Below, in pieces: positions 41,554 through 48,375 of a stretch of DNA of 64,000 bases. The notes beneath the pieces are model-generated. The model was not told where the DNA came from. It saw nothing but the letters and a program-made list of their open reading frames with translations, and did no database searches. The DNA lies in NCBI RefSeq assembly GCF_030378065.1, contig NZ_JAUCGJ010000021.1:1-64000 (forward strand). Direction: 5' to 3'. The position numbers and the translations under genes are program-made. The stretch comes from Candidatus Venteria ishoeyi (lineage in GTDB: Bacteria > Pseudomonadota > Gammaproteobacteria > Beggiatoales > Beggiatoaceae). Numbering within the stretch: position 1 is the stretch's first letter; each line of letters starts with the position of its first letter.

Positions 41554-42975
41554 TTATTTAAGCGTCTCTAATGTCACATTATTCTTATGTGCATTTTTAC
41601 CCTGTCGTAAGACCACTTCATAGGTTAATTCCTGTTTTTGACCGACAGGAATATGTGCCTGGTATTGCACAGTGCGAAAATCGTGCAGTGTAGGCTTTAG
41701 ATCGCTGCGAAATAATACATCACCCTCATATTGCCGCCGTACTTCGAGTTGAATGGGACGTTGCGTGTAATTAATCACTTGTTGACTGTAACGGGTGTGA
41801 CTATCCCAACCCGCGACAGTGCTGCGGCTGTCAAACTGTAATTTGCCACTATCCAGTTTACGGTAGACGTTAGGGCCGCGTAATTTCATTAAAAAGGCAT
41901 CGCGCCAGACTTTTAATTTACGCAGCTCAAATTGTACTTCCGGGTCAACCCCCAGATTTAATTCAATCTTATCGCCTATCGGTACATATTTCAGGTGTTG
42001 CGCAGTCAGCCAGTTTAAGCCTTGTTGCGTTTTTTCCCGGAAAACCTGAACCTGTCCTTCCGGCAAGGGCGTCTTACCCAGTTCAGAGGCCGAGTCATTT
42101 TTCATCAGATATAAACGCACCAGTTGATTACCATATTCGCGTGGGCGATAGCGGTATTCAACCTGCATTGGCACGGCATCCGCTTTAAAGCTGCGCAGGC
42201 GCTTGCTCCAGCCGTCAGCAATGGTTTCCGTGCCTTCAATCGTGTATAAAAAATATTCACTGAGACTTTCTTTAGCCACTTCTTTAGGCGCAGCCATAGC
42301 CGCTGGCACAGCCATATCTGCCATTTCCATCGTGGCTTCTGTTTTTAAGGCCCGTATTGCGTGTTTCATACGGCGCTTGTTTTGTGCTTTTTTCTGATAA
42401 CGCCCGGATGCTTTAATTTGTGTTTGCCTACTGGTCAGACTGCTAATTGATTCAACCAGGTTAATCGTGCCAACCACCAGACGCACCTGGGCATTTTCAT
42501 AATCTTCCCCGGAATGATTACGGATGCGTACAAAACTTTCCAGATTCAGCGTGGTTTCTTCAGGATTGGCAATTGCCAGATAATCCGCCTGCCAGGAAAT
42601 GCCGGAAGTGAAATAGCTGATTTCCAATTCAACTGCACCTTGATATTCGCTGTGTATCTGCCAGTACAGCATTTGCGGTTTATCGTGCGGGAAACGAATA
42701 TCTAAAATTTCCAGTTCAGCGCCGTGGTTGAGAAAACGCAATTCCACCGAGGAGGGATCAATTAAGGTGTTACTCCAGGAAAATTGCAGGGGATTTTTAC
42801 CTTTTTTGAAACTTAAAGTGCGCTTTTCCCGCACCAGGGTTAAATCCTCAGCATTATAAATGGTTAATTGCACCTGCTGACGCGGTGGTACGGTTGATAA
42901 ATCAATATTTTTGGCAAACACGCTCAAGCTGCTAAATAACAAGCTGATAAACAAACAAGACTTAAAAATATTCAT
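41554..42975 (-). CDS. Exported DUF4139 protein (paralogue 1)
   Basis: 473 residues with AGGGAG before ATG 42975 and a signal peptide ending VFA. The N-terminal beta region (VQLTIYNAEDLTLVREKRTL), the FSWSNTLIDPSSVELR motif and the C-terminal domain (NYTQRPIQLEVRRQYEGDVL) fit DUF4139/DUF4140 proteins, large all-beta exported proteins of unknown role. A low-complexity Ala/Met stretch (about 210-235) lies in the middle. It is the third gene of an operon after the TssG fusion and the next DUF4139 gene, with 14 bases between. Confidence 0.75.
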   Translation of the reverse strand: MNIFKSCLFISLLFSSLSVFAKNIDLSTVPPRQQVQLTIYNAEDLTLVREKRTLSFKKGKNPLQFSWSNTLIDPSSVELRFLNHGAELEILDIRFPHDKPQMLYWQIHSEYQGAVELEISYFTSGISWQADYLAIANPEETTLNLESFVRIRNHSGEDYENAQVRLVVGTINLVESISSLTSRQTQIKASGRYQKKAQNKRRMKHAIRALKTEATMEMADMAVPAAMAAPKEVAKESLSEYFLYTIEGTETIADGWSKRLRSFKADAVPMQVEYRYRPREYGNQLVRLYLMKNDSASELGKTPLPEGQVQVFREKTQQGLNWLTAQHLKYVPIGDKIELNLGVDPEVQFELRKLKVWRDAFLMKLRGPNVYRKLDSGKLQFDSRSTVAGWDSHTRYSQQVINYTQRPIQLEVRRQYEGDVLFRSDLKPTLHDFRTVQYQAHIPVGQKQELTYEVVLRQGKNAHKNNVTLETLK

Positions 42976-42989
42976 GGTTTATAACTCCC

Positions 42990-44192
42990 TTAACGCCATT
43001 CATTTTTCAGTAAAATTGCCAGTTTGTGCACGATTTTCCTGGCACTGCCATCGGCATTGCGCGCAGGCAGATCCGTGGTGTAATATAATTTTTCAAAACT
43101 GCTTTTTTCCGGATCGGCAGCCGTGCTGAACGTGGTTTCATCCAGAATTTCCCACTCCACATCCTGATCGGTATAACCGCGCAACTCATTACGCACGGCC
43201 CACAGGTTTTCTGCAATGTTCAGTGCAACGGCTTTATTTTTGAAATTTTCAATTTCATAACGAATAATCACTTTATGGTTGTATAAGTTGCCAGCAACCC
43301 GCTGTTGCTCGCTTTTTTCTATGCTGCGCTTGACCACAATATCCTGTGCCACGCCCAGGTATAAAGCCATTTCATCATCGCGCGGTGTAAAATGTCCCCA
43401 GTCCTCACCAATAAATACCTGACTGCCCTGGCTGTCCGTTTGAAAAATACGCACTTTCCCCGCCGCCAGCGGGGTTTTGCCTAAATGATGCTCGGCATCA
43501 TTGTTTAAGACATAATGCATGGGGACTTTTAATTTTTTTTGTGGCGCATTGAGATAACCATAGTCTTCCAGGTCTGCGGTATAGGTTTTTTCTATCGGTA
43601 CATTGGTATAAGATGCAAATAACAATTTCTGACTTTCATTAAGCGCAATAGAGCGTTGAAAAACACCACCAAAACCTGCCTGAATCCGGCTGTCAGTAAA
43701 TGACTCTCCGGCATGATTTTTCACCTTAAGGTATTGTGATAAGCTCAGGGTTTTTTCCTCGCCGTCACTGAGTGCGCGATAGCTGAAACTGCGTGACAGT
43801 TGATGCAGTATATAACTGATACGCACCCGGGCTGTTGCCGTTTGTTGCGCACCAACATTCCAGACCAGTGCATTCTCCCCAGGCGGATAACTCACCGATA
43901 ATACCTGTACGGCATCGCCACTGGGTTCCATCACCCGAAATACAATACTGTCCGGGTCGATACCGGTATTGGCCCAGGAAAAATCAACTTGATTATTGCC
44001 CTGAATCAAAGGCACCAGGCGCTCTTCTTCCACTAAGGTCACTGCGGCATTATCAAGATGTACTTCCACACGCTCACGGGGGGGCAGGGTGATGAGTTTA
44101 ATGCGCGCCCAGGCCTCTAAGGGTGCAAACAGTACCAGTGCTAAAATAAAAGCCGTTGTTACAATTTTGCTGAGTTGAAATGGATAAGACAT
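42990..44192 (-). CDS. Exported DUF4139 protein (paralogue 2)
   Basis: 400 residues with AGGAG eight bases before ATG 44192 and a signal peptide ending AWA. The same layout as its neighbour (LPPRERVEVHLDNAAVTLVE; VDFSWANTGIDPDSIVFR) shows an old tandem duplication. It lacks the central insert of the other. It follows the TssG fusion by 13 bases, so the three genes are one transcription unit. Location is expected to be periplasmic or outer surface; function unknown. Confidence 0.75.
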   Translation of the reverse strand: MSYPFQLSKIVTTAFILALVLFAPLEAWARIKLITLPPRERVEVHLDNAAVTLVEEERLVPLIQGNNQVDFSWANTGIDPDSIVFRVMEPSGDAVQVLSVSYPPGENALVWNVGAQQTATARVRISYILHQLSRSFSYRALSDGEEKTLSLSQYLKVKNHAGESFTDSRIQAGFGGVFQRSIALNESQKLLFASYTNVPIEKTYTADLEDYGYLNAPQKKLKVPMHYVLNNDAEHHLGKTPLAAGKVRIFQTDSQGSQVFIGEDWGHFTPRDDEMALYLGVAQDIVVKRSIEKSEQQRVAGNLYNHKVIIRYEIENFKNKAVALNIAENLWAVRNELRGYTDQDVEWEILDETTFSTAADPEKSSFEKLYYTTDLPARNADGSARKIVHKLAILLKNEWR

Positions 44193-44205: not shown

Positions 44206-45648
44206 TTAGACTTTATAATGGTTACGATGAGTATAAATAGACATTAGCATTTGTCGGATTCTGGGATATTTTTCTATAATCCATTCCACATCGGCTTTGT
44301 CCAGTTCCAGTAATTTGGTGTCTGCGGTGGTAATCACCGTTGCCATGCGGGGTTTGTCGGTAAGTAAAGAAAATTCTCCAAAAAAATCACCCACTTGCAG
44401 ATTGGCCAATGTTTTTTCCTGACCTTCTACGGTTTTACGGACAACCTGCACCGACCCGGAGCGAATTAAAAACAGGGAATGACTTTGATCCCCCTGTTGT
44501 ATGACCACGGTATGCATCGGAAGGTTATGCACCTGCATATTATTGTGTATCATTTCACGCGCTTCCTGGGGTAAGTAAGCCAGCAATGGAATCGTGGTCT
44601 CTGATTTTTCCTTTAATAATTTTTTGGGGCGTAGCGTAACCTGTGGATTTTGCTGGAAATCAGCACTTTTCAACCAACTGGTCCAGGACAGGCGCGCACC
44701 CTTTTTATGACTCAGGGTACAAGCAGGCACGGCTGCTTTTTTTAAGCGAATTTCCAGATCAAAATCCAATTCGGGGCCAATAAAAAAACGGGTGAGTTCA
44801 CATAAGGGGATAAATCCCCAGCCAATGGGCAGAAAATTGAGAAAAGCCTGGAAATCCAGGGCTTCAGTTTGTATCAGCAGTTTGCCTTGTTGATCCCAGA
44901 CCCGGCTGCCTAAAGCCGCACCCTGCCCCAGGCTTTGCTGTTGGCCTTTGGCGGAACCCAGATGGGTGCAGGCATCTTCTGATAACTCTAACCATTGCCC
45001 AATAAACGGTAAAACCTTCATTTTAACCCGGAAATAATCCGATAACATGGCTTCCAGCGCAACCTGGGAATGTGGCTCATGCTGTAATATACCCGCATAA
45101 TGCAATAAGGCATGGTCTTCAGTCTGCATGCGCTGCTGCAAACCTTCCGTACCCATGCCAAACAGAGAAAATAAAAAGCGCGCAAAGCGTGATTGCCAGG
45201 GGGTGTTTTCGCCATAACCCAAACGGTGGGTACTGCGCACCCGGTATTGCAGTGATAACAGACGATGGTTAAAAATATCCAGAAAGCTTTTTAGCGCCGT
45301 GTCTTTATTCCATACCCGATCCATAATCAGTTCAGTATAGGGTGTGGGCAAGGGGCCGTTAGCACCCGCCAGCCCCATGAAATTAACCTGCATTTGTGGA
45401 CGGGTATCGCTTATGTTGGGGTCTTGCGCGTCCGGGACTTCAATCTCATCAATCTCAGTTGCAGGAAAGCGAATGTCGACTTTAGAGCGAAAACAGATAG
45501 CTTCCTGCATCGGGTTATTATGTTGTGCAGGGCGATGGGCTGCTGGCGCACATTGTAATAATAGGCGCACCGCCTGATAAAATTCAAAGCGATGTGCCTC
45601 TTTTAATAAGCTTTCCAACACTGTAATACGGCGTTTTAATGGGGGCAT
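44206..45648 (-). CDS. TssG-like protein fused to cyclic-nucleotide-binding domain
   Basis: 480 residues. Residues 1-330 match TssG/ImpH/VasB, a baseplate-wedge protein of type VI secretion: LLKEAHRFEFYQAVRLL, the loop FMGLAGANGPLP (91-102), FLDIFNHRLLSLQYR and the closing RLSWTSWL. Residues about 366-465 form a Crp-like cyclic-nucleotide-binding domain with an apparently complete phosphate-binding cassette (GDFFGEFSLLTDKPRMATV; Glu425, Arg434). TssG normally ends before this point, so it is a fusion. No other T6SS gene is in the 64-kb window; instead two exported DUF4139 genes follow by 13-14 bases. ATG 45648 has only a weak AGG upstream. The TssG part appears complete. Confidence 0.85.
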   Translation of the reverse strand: MPPLKRRITVLESLLKEAHRFEFYQAVRLLLQCAPAAHRPAQHNNPMQEAICFRSKVDIRFPATEIDEIEVPDAQDPNISDTRPQMQVNFMGLAGANGPLPTPYTELIMDRVWNKDTALKSFLDIFNHRLLSLQYRVRSTHRLGYGENTPWQSRFARFLFSLFGMGTEGLQQRMQTEDHALLHYAGILQHEPHSQVALEAMLSDYFRVKMKVLPFIGQWLELSEDACTHLGSAKGQQQSLGQGAALGSRVWDQQGKLLIQTEALDFQAFLNFLPIGWGFIPLCELTRFFIGPELDFDLEIRLKKAAVPACTLSHKKGARLSWTSWLKSADFQQNPQVTLRPKKLLKEKSETTIPLLAYLPQEAREMIHNNMQVHNLPMHTVVIQQGDQSHSLFLIRSGSVQVVRKTVEGQEKTLANLQVGDFFGEFSLLTDKPRMATVITTADTKLLELDKADVEWIIEKYPRIRQMLMSIYTHRNHYKV

Positions 45649-45763: not shown

Positions 45764-48001
45764 TCAATTTATTGGCTCTACACTGTTTTTCATGTTGATC
45801 ACCCGGGGGCTGCCATAAACGTGATGTAGATTTTCAATTTGCAGCAGCGCTTTACTCAGTTGGCGCAAGTTTCTGATTTCAATACTCATCACCATATTGG
45901 CGATGTTTTCTTTGTCCGTCTGGGTTTGCATTGCCATGATGTTAACCCGGGCATCGGACAGAATGCTGCTGATGTCGCGTACTAAACCAAACCGGTCATC
46001 GGCTTTAATTTCAATATCCACTGCATAACTTTGTTCCGGCAGACTCTCCCAGTTCAGCGTGACCAGCCCTGGATGGTTGGCGGCTTTCCAGGTAATCACT
46101 TTCAGACAGTCTGAACGATGCACCTCAACGCCACGGGAGGTAAAATAACCGGTAATCGCTTGATGGGGTTCCGGGTGACAACAATCGGCAGTGAACATTT
46201 TAATATGGGCATCGTCTACGGCGCTACTGTGTGACATCAGCGGATGACTGCGCAAGGTGCGCGGTTGGGCATGATGGGGTAATAATTTGCTGCCAAAAGA
46301 GGTCACTACTTCCGAAGTCTCCAGGTCGCCACGACCAATCGCGGCAAGAAACCCTTCCAGGTCTTCAAAATCAAACTGCTCTGCCAGTTCCGATAAATTG
46401 GCATCCGCAACATTTAAGCGATATAACTCACGATTTAGCGCAGATCGCCCTTCGGCAACATGGTGTTCATCATCTTGTTGTTTCAGCCATTGTTTAATCC
46501 GGGTAAGTGCACGGGATGTTTTAACATAGCCCAGTTGCTCATCCAGCCAGCGCCGGTTGGGGCGCGCATGTTCAGATTTGATGATTTCAACCTGATCGCC
46601 GGTATGCAAAGGATAGGTCAGGGGCATAATGCGTCCATTAACCCGTGCCCCACGGCAGCGATGCCCTAATTCGGTATGAATATAATAGGCAAAATCAATC
46701 GGTGTTGCACCACTGGGTAAGTCAATGATTTTACCCTCAGGGCTGCGCACATAAACTCTGGCTTCATGTAATTCTGATTGAAAACGCCGAATAAAGTCCC
46801 CCGCGCTGACTTCTTCATCCTGCCAGGTTAGCACTTGCCGCATCCAGGCAATTTTACGTTCAAAATCCTCATCAGGATGAGAACCTTCCTTATAACGCCA
46901 ATGGGAGGCCACGCCCAACTCGGAATGATGGTGCATCTGCTGGGTGCGGATTTGCACTTCAAAGGTCTGCTGATTGGGGCCAATGACCGCAGTATGTAAG
47001 GAGCTGTAATCATTGATTTTGGGGTTGGCGATATAATCATCAAACTCCCCCGGCACGGGTGGTGATTGTTTGTGAATCAAACCCAGCGCCAGGTAACATT
47101 CCTGTTCGGTATTGACGATAACCCGCACCGCCAGCACGTCATACAGTTCATGATAATCCAGTTGCTTGCGCTGCATCTTTTCCCAGATGCTGTAGATATG
47201 TTTGGGACGCCCCATGACCTGCGCCTGGATACCTGCCTGCTCCAGCGTTTCCCTGATTTGCTGCATCATTTGCGCAATATGTGCTTCCCGATCAGTGCGG
47301 CGCTCTTGCAATAAACTGGCAATTTGCTTGTATTGCTCAGGTTGCAGATAACGCAGAGAAAGGTCTTCCAGCTCCCATTTAATCTGCCAGATACCCAGGC
47401 GATTGGCCAGTGGTGCAAAAATATCCAAGGTTTCGTGGGCAATGCGGCGTTGCTGGGCAGCGGATAAATGGCGTAACATGCGCATTTCATGCAGGCGTTC
47501 AGCGAGTTTAATCAACATCACCCGTACATCTTCGACCATCGCCAGAATCATCCGGCGCAGGTTTTCCGTTTGTTGATTTTGCCCCTGATTATTCAGATTT
47601 TCTTCAGCATCAAGTTTAAGCTCACTGAGAAAACCCATTTTATTCACACCATCAACCATTTTTGCGACAGCGTCCCCAAACTGCTGGCGCACAGTTTGCA
47701 CATCCAGATCACCGGTTTCCACCGGATCATGCAAAATAGAAGCAATCAGCGTGTCGGTATCCATGTTCAGTTGCGCCAGTAAATCAAGCACGGTAAAAAC
47801 ATGGTTAATAGCCGGTTCACCGGTGGGGCGTAATTTATCCTGACAGCGTTGCTGCGCCAGTTTAAAAGCGCGTATCAGGGTATCCCGTTCCTTAGCTGTG
47901 CGATCTTGACTGACTTGTTCAAACCAGGCATCTAGTTGTAACAAGCCGGGTTTGCTGTTGCTGTGTGCAGGTTCGCTCATATTAAGTGCATTTGTATTCA
48001 T
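45764..48001 (-). CDS. relA: GTP pyrophosphokinase (stringent response)
   Basis: 745 residues from ATG 48001; ATG 47980 and TTG 48025 are alternatives, none with a clear ribosome site. The order is HD-type domain (about 50-190), synthetase (GRPKHIYSIWEKMQRK; YHELYDVLAVRV; EVQIRTQQMHHHSELGVASHW), TGS (VRSPEGKIIDLPSGATPIDF), helical/zinc-finger region and C-terminal ACT. The hydrolase motif HDPVETGD lacks the Asp of the canonical HDxxED, as in RelA rather than SpoT, so it is predicted to make but not break (p)ppGpp. Confidence 0.93.
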   Translation of the reverse strand: MNTNALNMSEPAHSNSKPGLLQLDAWFEQVSQDRTAKERDTLIRAFKLAQQRCQDKLRPTGEPAINHVFTVLDLLAQLNMDTDTLIASILHDPVETGDLDVQTVRQQFGDAVAKMVDGVNKMGFLSELKLDAEENLNNQGQNQQTENLRRMILAMVEDVRVMLIKLAERLHEMRMLRHLSAAQQRRIAHETLDIFAPLANRLGIWQIKWELEDLSLRYLQPEQYKQIASLLQERRTDREAHIAQMMQQIRETLEQAGIQAQVMGRPKHIYSIWEKMQRKQLDYHELYDVLAVRVIVNTEQECYLALGLIHKQSPPVPGEFDDYIANPKINDYSSLHTAVIGPNQQTFEVQIRTQQMHHHSELGVASHWRYKEGSHPDEDFERKIAWMRQVLTWQDEEVSAGDFIRRFQSELHEARVYVRSPEGKIIDLPSGATPIDFAYYIHTELGHRCRGARVNGRIMPLTYPLHTGDQVEIIKSEHARPNRRWLDEQLGYVKTSRALTRIKQWLKQQDDEHHVAEGRSALNRELYRLNVADANLSELAEQFDFEDLEGFLAAIGRGDLETSEVVTSFGSKLLPHHAQPRTLRSHPLMSHSSAVDDAHIKMFTADCCHPEPHQAITGYFTSRGVEVHRSDCLKVITWKAANHPGLVTLNWESLPEQSYAVDIEIKADDRFGLVRDISSILSDARVNIMAMQTQTDKENIANMVMSIEIRNLRQLSKALLQIENLHHVYGSPRVINMKNSVEPIN

Positions 48002-48375
48002 AAGGTGGTTTATTCCAAAGACCAAGCGATAACGATTACACTATTTTCTGGCAATCGTCCAAATAATCGGCGGATTAAGCTGAAGCAAGGATTTGCAGGA
48101 TTTGAAGAATGATAAAATTTCCCTAAGCCTGACAGCCTCCTAGATTCAGCTTATGTTAAAATACCGTTATTTTTTTATCTTTAATGATTGTTATGTTGTA
48201 CTGATGTTGCACAGTTGCTGCTTTTTTGCACCAAAATAGTGTTTGGCAAGGTGCAAATACAAATCAGCGTGAAGCAAAAGTGGTTTTTTTGTGTTTCAAA
48301 CCTTCAAAACCTGCAAAAAAGAAGCTTTTGCGTAACACCGTTATTTTATTATACATTGAAACGAGAAATACGCTT
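48002..48375. other. Intergenic region between relA and moxR
   Basis: About 374 bp between divergent genes. It holds a half-copy of the GACAGCCTCC element (48131-48140). The moxR frame is open through much of it back to 48226, but that part reads as low-complexity Lys-rich sequence and is not counted as coding. Confidence 0.5.

Follow-up and report, generated by a model that had tools for sequence, protein, structure and literature searches.

A type VI secretion baseplate protein, TssG, with a C-terminal cyclic-nucleotide-binding domain in Candidatus Venteria ishoeyi

Background

What triggers assembly and firing of the type VI secretion system (T6SS) baseplate is an open question in the field, and in a 2023 review the signal that makes the baseplate change conformation is described as uncharacterized (PMC10482370). 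In the window analysed here, a stretch of 64,000 nucleotides, one gene appears to join the baseplate subunit TssG to a domain of the type that binds cyclic nucleotides (cNMP). The locus therefore raises the question of whether the gene is genuine, whether its product is the TssG of a T6SS, and whether the added domain could sense a ligand. If it does, the baseplate assembly step would have a ligand-controlled handle in the form of a sensor built into a subunit, and a signalling molecule could give the cell a direct on-off switch for its harpoon, the T6SS.

The fusion gene and its neighbours

The gene is a single unbroken open reading frame (ORF) of 480 amino acids, with its ATG at 45648 and its TAA at 44206 (Table 1). 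The sequence-only reading had reported the fusion without a strand; the fusion is borne out by the uninterrupted ORF, and the strand, minus, is supplied here. Frameshifts, internal stops, N and direct repeats were looked for at the junction and none was seen. There is no ATG or GTG between residues 326 and 365 (TTG occurs at 326 and 355), so a complete stand-alone sensor cannot start in the linker from ATG or GTG. Fusion in silico of two separate genes during assembly is very improbable: although the protein is known from one draft genome of 115 contigs in a single assembly, the join is in frame, contains no stop, N or repeat, and lies in the middle of a 73 kb contig (C33), and GC content is alike on either side of it (0.485 and 0.443 in the two halves of the gene, 0.43-0.49 in neighbouring genes).

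Table 1. Features of the fusion gene and adjacent genes, in coordinates of the window
Feature	Coordinates	Strand	Basis or remark
Second DUF4139/MuiA-like protein	41554..42975	-	Pfam, NCBIfam; 14 bp further downstream
DUF4139/MuiA-like protein, apparent signal peptide	42990..44192	-	Pfam, NCBIfam; 13 bp downstream of tssG-cNMP
tssG-cNMP fusion gene, 480 aa	44206..45648	-	ORF list, Pfam, NCBIfam
Cyclic-nucleotide-binding domain with flanking helices, residues 352-475	44224..44595	-	Pfam, alignments
PF00027 core, residues 375-461	44266..44526	-	Pfam
Phosphate-binding cassette, Glu425 to Arg434	44347..44376	-	Alignments
Linker, residues 328-351	44596..44667	-	Between TssG match and cNMP-domain helices; alignments
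TssG domain, residues 17-327, full PF06996 model	44668..45600	-	Pfam
TssG loop 2 hydrophobics Leu312, Leu320, Leu326, second TssK trimer contact	44671..44715	-	Profile alignment; PMC6300606
TssG loop 1 hydrophobics Leu240-Leu246, TssK trimer contact (E. coli Leu236, Met242)	44911..44931	-	Profile alignment; PMC6300606
RelA/SpoT-family (spoT-like) gene, co-directional	45764..48025	-	Pfam; 115 bp upstream of tssG-cNMP

The fusion gene and both DUF4139/MuiA-like genes are probably one operon, and the RelA/SpoT-family gene is not part of the T6SS. The same arrangement around tssG was sought in the relatives examined and is kept in none of them, so the neighbourhood gives no clue to function. The two DUF4139/MuiA-like genes (window 41554-44192) are adjacent yet divergent in sequence, and the products of both have apparent signal peptides.

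The TssG half

The TssG profile PF06996 matches residues 17-327 over its full length (profile positions 1-304 of 304, E=1.7e-94, 316.9 bits against a cut-off of 24.6), and the NCBIfam TssG model TIGR03347 scores 311.5 bits, far above its curated cut-off of 143.3. The cNMP_binding profile PF00027 matches residues 375-461 (profile positions 3-89 of 89, E=1.1e-22, 80.3 bits against 27.5). Neither match is due to chance. The two profiles, each matched over the full or nearly the full model, thus agree with the initial description of the protein as TssG over its first 330 or so residues and a Crp-like nucleotide-binding domain over its last 115 or so.

The residues of E. coli TssG that contact TssK trimers have been defined in two loops, both located in its C-terminal domain (PMC6300606). 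When a profile of six TssGs was aligned to EAEC TssG (PDB 6giy chain C), L240, L246, L312, L320 and L326 of the fusion protein aligned to EAEC L236, M242, L308, L319 and M325, respectively; the contact hydrophobics are therefore kept or conservatively replaced at five of six positions, the sixth being EAEC M228, whose counterpart is ambiguous. On this basis the TssG half looks functional. EAEC TssG (PDB 6giy/6n38) resembles the fusion protein in its full TssG profile match and in the hydrophobic sets of both TssK loops, which are largely conserved, but it ends at residue 366 with no added domain, whereas the fusion has about 150 further residues that include the cNMP domain. In a tree of 44 TssGs, the TssG half groups with TssGs of its own bacterial family (support 99/95), and its branch length within the family clade (0.52) is ordinary. 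Given the kept TssK contacts, the family placement and the ordinary branch, this half looks like a constrained and inherited TssG, neither decayed nor borrowed. A single alignment of TssGs with CRPs was discarded since the CRPs fell on the TssG half, and the two halves were therefore aligned separately.

The cyclic-nucleotide-binding half

In cyclic-nucleotide-binding domains, a cassette Glu contacts the ribose 2'-OH and an Arg contacts the phosphate. Both are present in the fusion protein as Glu425 and Arg434 (FGEFSLLTDKPRMAT), within a retained FGE...PR-AT cassette; as first read, they are in place, according to residue numbering and to an alignment in which they fall on E72 and R82 of CRP, the residues with which that protein binds ribose and phosphate. 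Directly after the cassette Arg comes Met435, at a position occupied by Ser, Thr or Ala in CRP and many relatives. By comparison with PKA and PKG, Met435 is weak evidence favouring cAMP over cGMP. The best sequence matches of the sensor among solved structures include the cNMP domains of PKA, PKG, EPAC and CRP. The AlphaFold models are of too low confidence to inform on the fold, with a mean pLDDT of 41 for the whole fusion protein (six sequences in the input alignment) and a pLDDT of 47 for the sensor alone (twelve rows).

Many PF00027 domains bind no cyclic nucleotide, the fold often having been co-opted without ligand binding. The added domain might thus be a structural or docking module, or a passenger tolerated since the linker holds it off the wedge, and the departure of Met435 from the usual residues and the fact that tails of 4-73 residues suffice for other TssGs are in keeping with this. 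We nevertheless consider a non-sensor role rather unlikely, given that the fusion protein retains both diagnostic residues, Glu and Arg, whereas one or both are missing from the aligned positions in five other domains of the same genome (L214, L216, L217, L219 and L220), and that the genome is rich in cyclases, encoding 13 of class III. The cNMP domain model has 14 matches in this genome. The domain may plausibly sense a cyclic nucleotide and control assembly.

T6SS genes elsewhere in the genome

The genome, which is 98.8% complete, was searched family by family and with one joined query for TssM, TssE, ClpV, VgrG and TssA. The fusion gene is the only TssG found. One copy each was found of TssF, TssK and TssC, and TssB and an Hcp, assigned by position and sequence, adjoin TssC. 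The joined query recovered ClpV (63% identity to that of a relative), VgrG, TssM, TssA and TssE, and Pfam confirmed TssL, TssM, TssE, TssA, VgrG and additional Hcp-like proteins. A search for TssM with PF06761 gave no match in this genome or in the three relatives searched; the gene was recovered through PF14331. Open frames are thus present for the core components Hcp, VgrG, ClpV and TssA, B, C, E, F, G, K, L and M. The core genes are spread over eight contigs (C9, C22, C26, C33, C36, C37, C47 and C62), with the fusion gene on C33 and the remainder on the seven others; this scatter is not merely fragmentation of the assembly, because several core genes have unrelated genes on both flanks. In relative G002 the T6SS genes form compact clusters, and in relative G006 the sister TssG likewise lies away from a T6SS cluster and has no sensor.

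These results bear on the suggestion, made when the gene was first noticed, that the protein had been recruited to another machine. It is true that no T6SS gene adjoins the fusion gene, whose neighbours are the spoT-like and DUF4139 genes. However, tssF, tssE and tssK, for which a genome search had been proposed, are all present in a T6SS core that looks complete and has the fusion as its only TssG; the other core components are also scattered, the TssK-contact loops are conserved, and the likewise isolated TssG of G006 carries no sensor. Departure of the protein from the T6SS, with its TssG-like half now scaffolding a different cNMP-regulated machine, is accordingly disfavoured, and we regard it as improbable.

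Several other features of the T6SS genes were noted. TssM (L201:6804-14480, on contig C26) is predicted to have 2558 residues, and after its second apparent transmembrane helix a unit of about 315 residues occurs four times in tandem, with 73% identity between copies 2 and 3 over 169 residues; TssM of relative G002 has 1554 residues and one unit. The periplasmic part of TssM seems to be longer here by about 1000 residues. Immediately 3' of tssM, and co-directional with it, is a PAS histidine kinase gene (L201:4188-6605). TssE is adjoined by three consecutive Hcp-like genes (L205:5707-8038; 178, 276 and 318 aa), and the 276- and 318-residue products match PF05638, the latter in two stretches.

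Distribution of the fusion

Nine other TssGs were found in the 43 genomes of the same family, and none of the nine is fused to a cNMP domain. Survey sets of 369 genomes of the class and 398 of the phylum (Pseudomonadota) were evenly drawn. In more than 100 TssG-bearing genomes among them no match extends beyond query residue 364; these surveys, like those of the family and of plasmids, are bounded by E-value limits, and a highly divergent added domain is detectable only among the 63 TssG C-termini that were measured directly, in which the tail after the TssG match is 4-73 residues long, compared with about 150 in the fusion protein. No relative came to light in a scan of viral contigs. Matches occur in 238 plasmid records, in no case spanning 80% of the query. 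Other fusions were suspected from long frames (up to 1151 aa) in GC-rich TssG hits, and those translated proved to have an excess of upstream frame, not a C-terminal domain. Since its nearest relatives lack the fusion, an origin within this lineage is the most likely. It is one instance from one assembly, which counts against the explanation favoured below.

No relevant paper that links a cyclic-nucleotide-binding domain to TssG, or to type VI secretion, was found in the literature. The layout, called undescribed in the sequence-only reading, thus has no parallel among the surveyed TssGs or in a published description that we could find; it is a variant of a known component, TssG, not previously described as far as searched.

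A ligand-tuned baseplate as the proposed function

The reading that we favour, with a probability of roughly 0.55, is that the protein is the cell's one TssG and a working baseplate subunit, with an added C-terminal domain of the CRP/PKA type through which the cNMP level would tune baseplate assembly or stability. The fusion protein would take the place of TssG in the TssF2-TssG1 wedge of the baseplate, and with one TssG per wedge the baseplate ring would bear six sensor domains, each about 25 residues beyond a loop that anchors a TssK trimer. A ligand, cAMP being likelier than cGMP, would be supplied by one of the 13 cyclases; its binding would shift the sensor domain and its C-helix, and this shift would relieve or impose a block on the contact of TssG with TssK or with TssF, so that baseplate assembly or stability might be coupled to the nucleotide level.

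In an E. coli study, TssG no longer interacted with TssF and TssK in two-hybrid assays once a domain was fused after its C-terminal domain, a loss that the authors attributed to steric hindrance (PMC6300606). In the fusion protein, a linker of some 24 residues leads to a domain of regulatory type at the equivalent position. The E. coli result suggests by analogy that the C-terminal site can affect wedge contacts, and the simplest reading would be that the ligand blocks or releases the assembly of the wedge; the two-hybrid loss could equally mean that a domain at the C-terminus merely harms assembly. A bolder proposal from the domain layout is that the baseplate is itself a cyclic-nucleotide receptor, its six TssG sensors directly gating the assembly of wedges or their readiness to fire, with no transcriptional or phosphorylation step; we offer it tentatively and would lean slightly against it.

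Comparison with known systems

According to the available part of the review cited above (PMC10482370), cyclic nucleotides affect the T6SS at the transcriptional or post-transcriptional level, apart from the binding of c-di-GMP to the ClpV homologue ClpB, and post-translational control is exerted by a threonine phosphorylation pathway, TagB/TagJ and turnover of TssE. The proposed control of TssG would resemble these last in that the target is the assembled or assembling apparatus, not transcription. It would differ in that no cyclic-nucleotide domain built into the baseplate is described in that part of the review, the nearest case being ClpB with bound c-di-GMP.

Family 2B encapsulins combine a virus-derived particle subunit with a PF00027 domain proposed to confer cNMP control (PMC8346489). 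Like the fusion protein they are self-assembling structural subunits with an added PF00027 domain, but they have a capsid fold and the domain is internal, whereas the fusion is a baseplate subunit with the domain at its C-terminus. The NCBIfam encapsulin model NF041163 hits the fusion through the cNMP domain only (residues 354-474), at 36 bits far below its cut-off of 400, and no HK97-type capsid domain was found in the fusion protein. If the proposal is correct, the T6SS baseplate would be a second phage-related assembly to have acquired a cyclic-nucleotide domain, family 2B encapsulins providing the earlier case.

CRP/FNR proteins have a sensor domain of the same family, with cassette Glu and Arg aligned with those of the fusion; in contrast to them, the fusion has no helix-turn-helix DNA-binding domain according to a Pfam search, and its ORF stops at residue 480, a few residues past the C-terminal helix of the sensor. 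The closest sensor sequences belong to proteins that, like the fusion, carry a C-terminal cNMP domain on an unrelated machine, namely MscS-type channels in genomes of the family (31-40%, one of them Pfam-confirmed) and, within the same genome, a Na+/H+ exchanger (38%); unlike the fusion, these act in membrane transport and contain no T6SS component. One ORF of about this kind (L128:1493-5113), like similar ORFs in many relatives, encodes a protein of about 1150-1200 residues in which an MscS channel core is joined to a periplasmic binding-protein domain and, at the C-terminus, to a cNMP domain.
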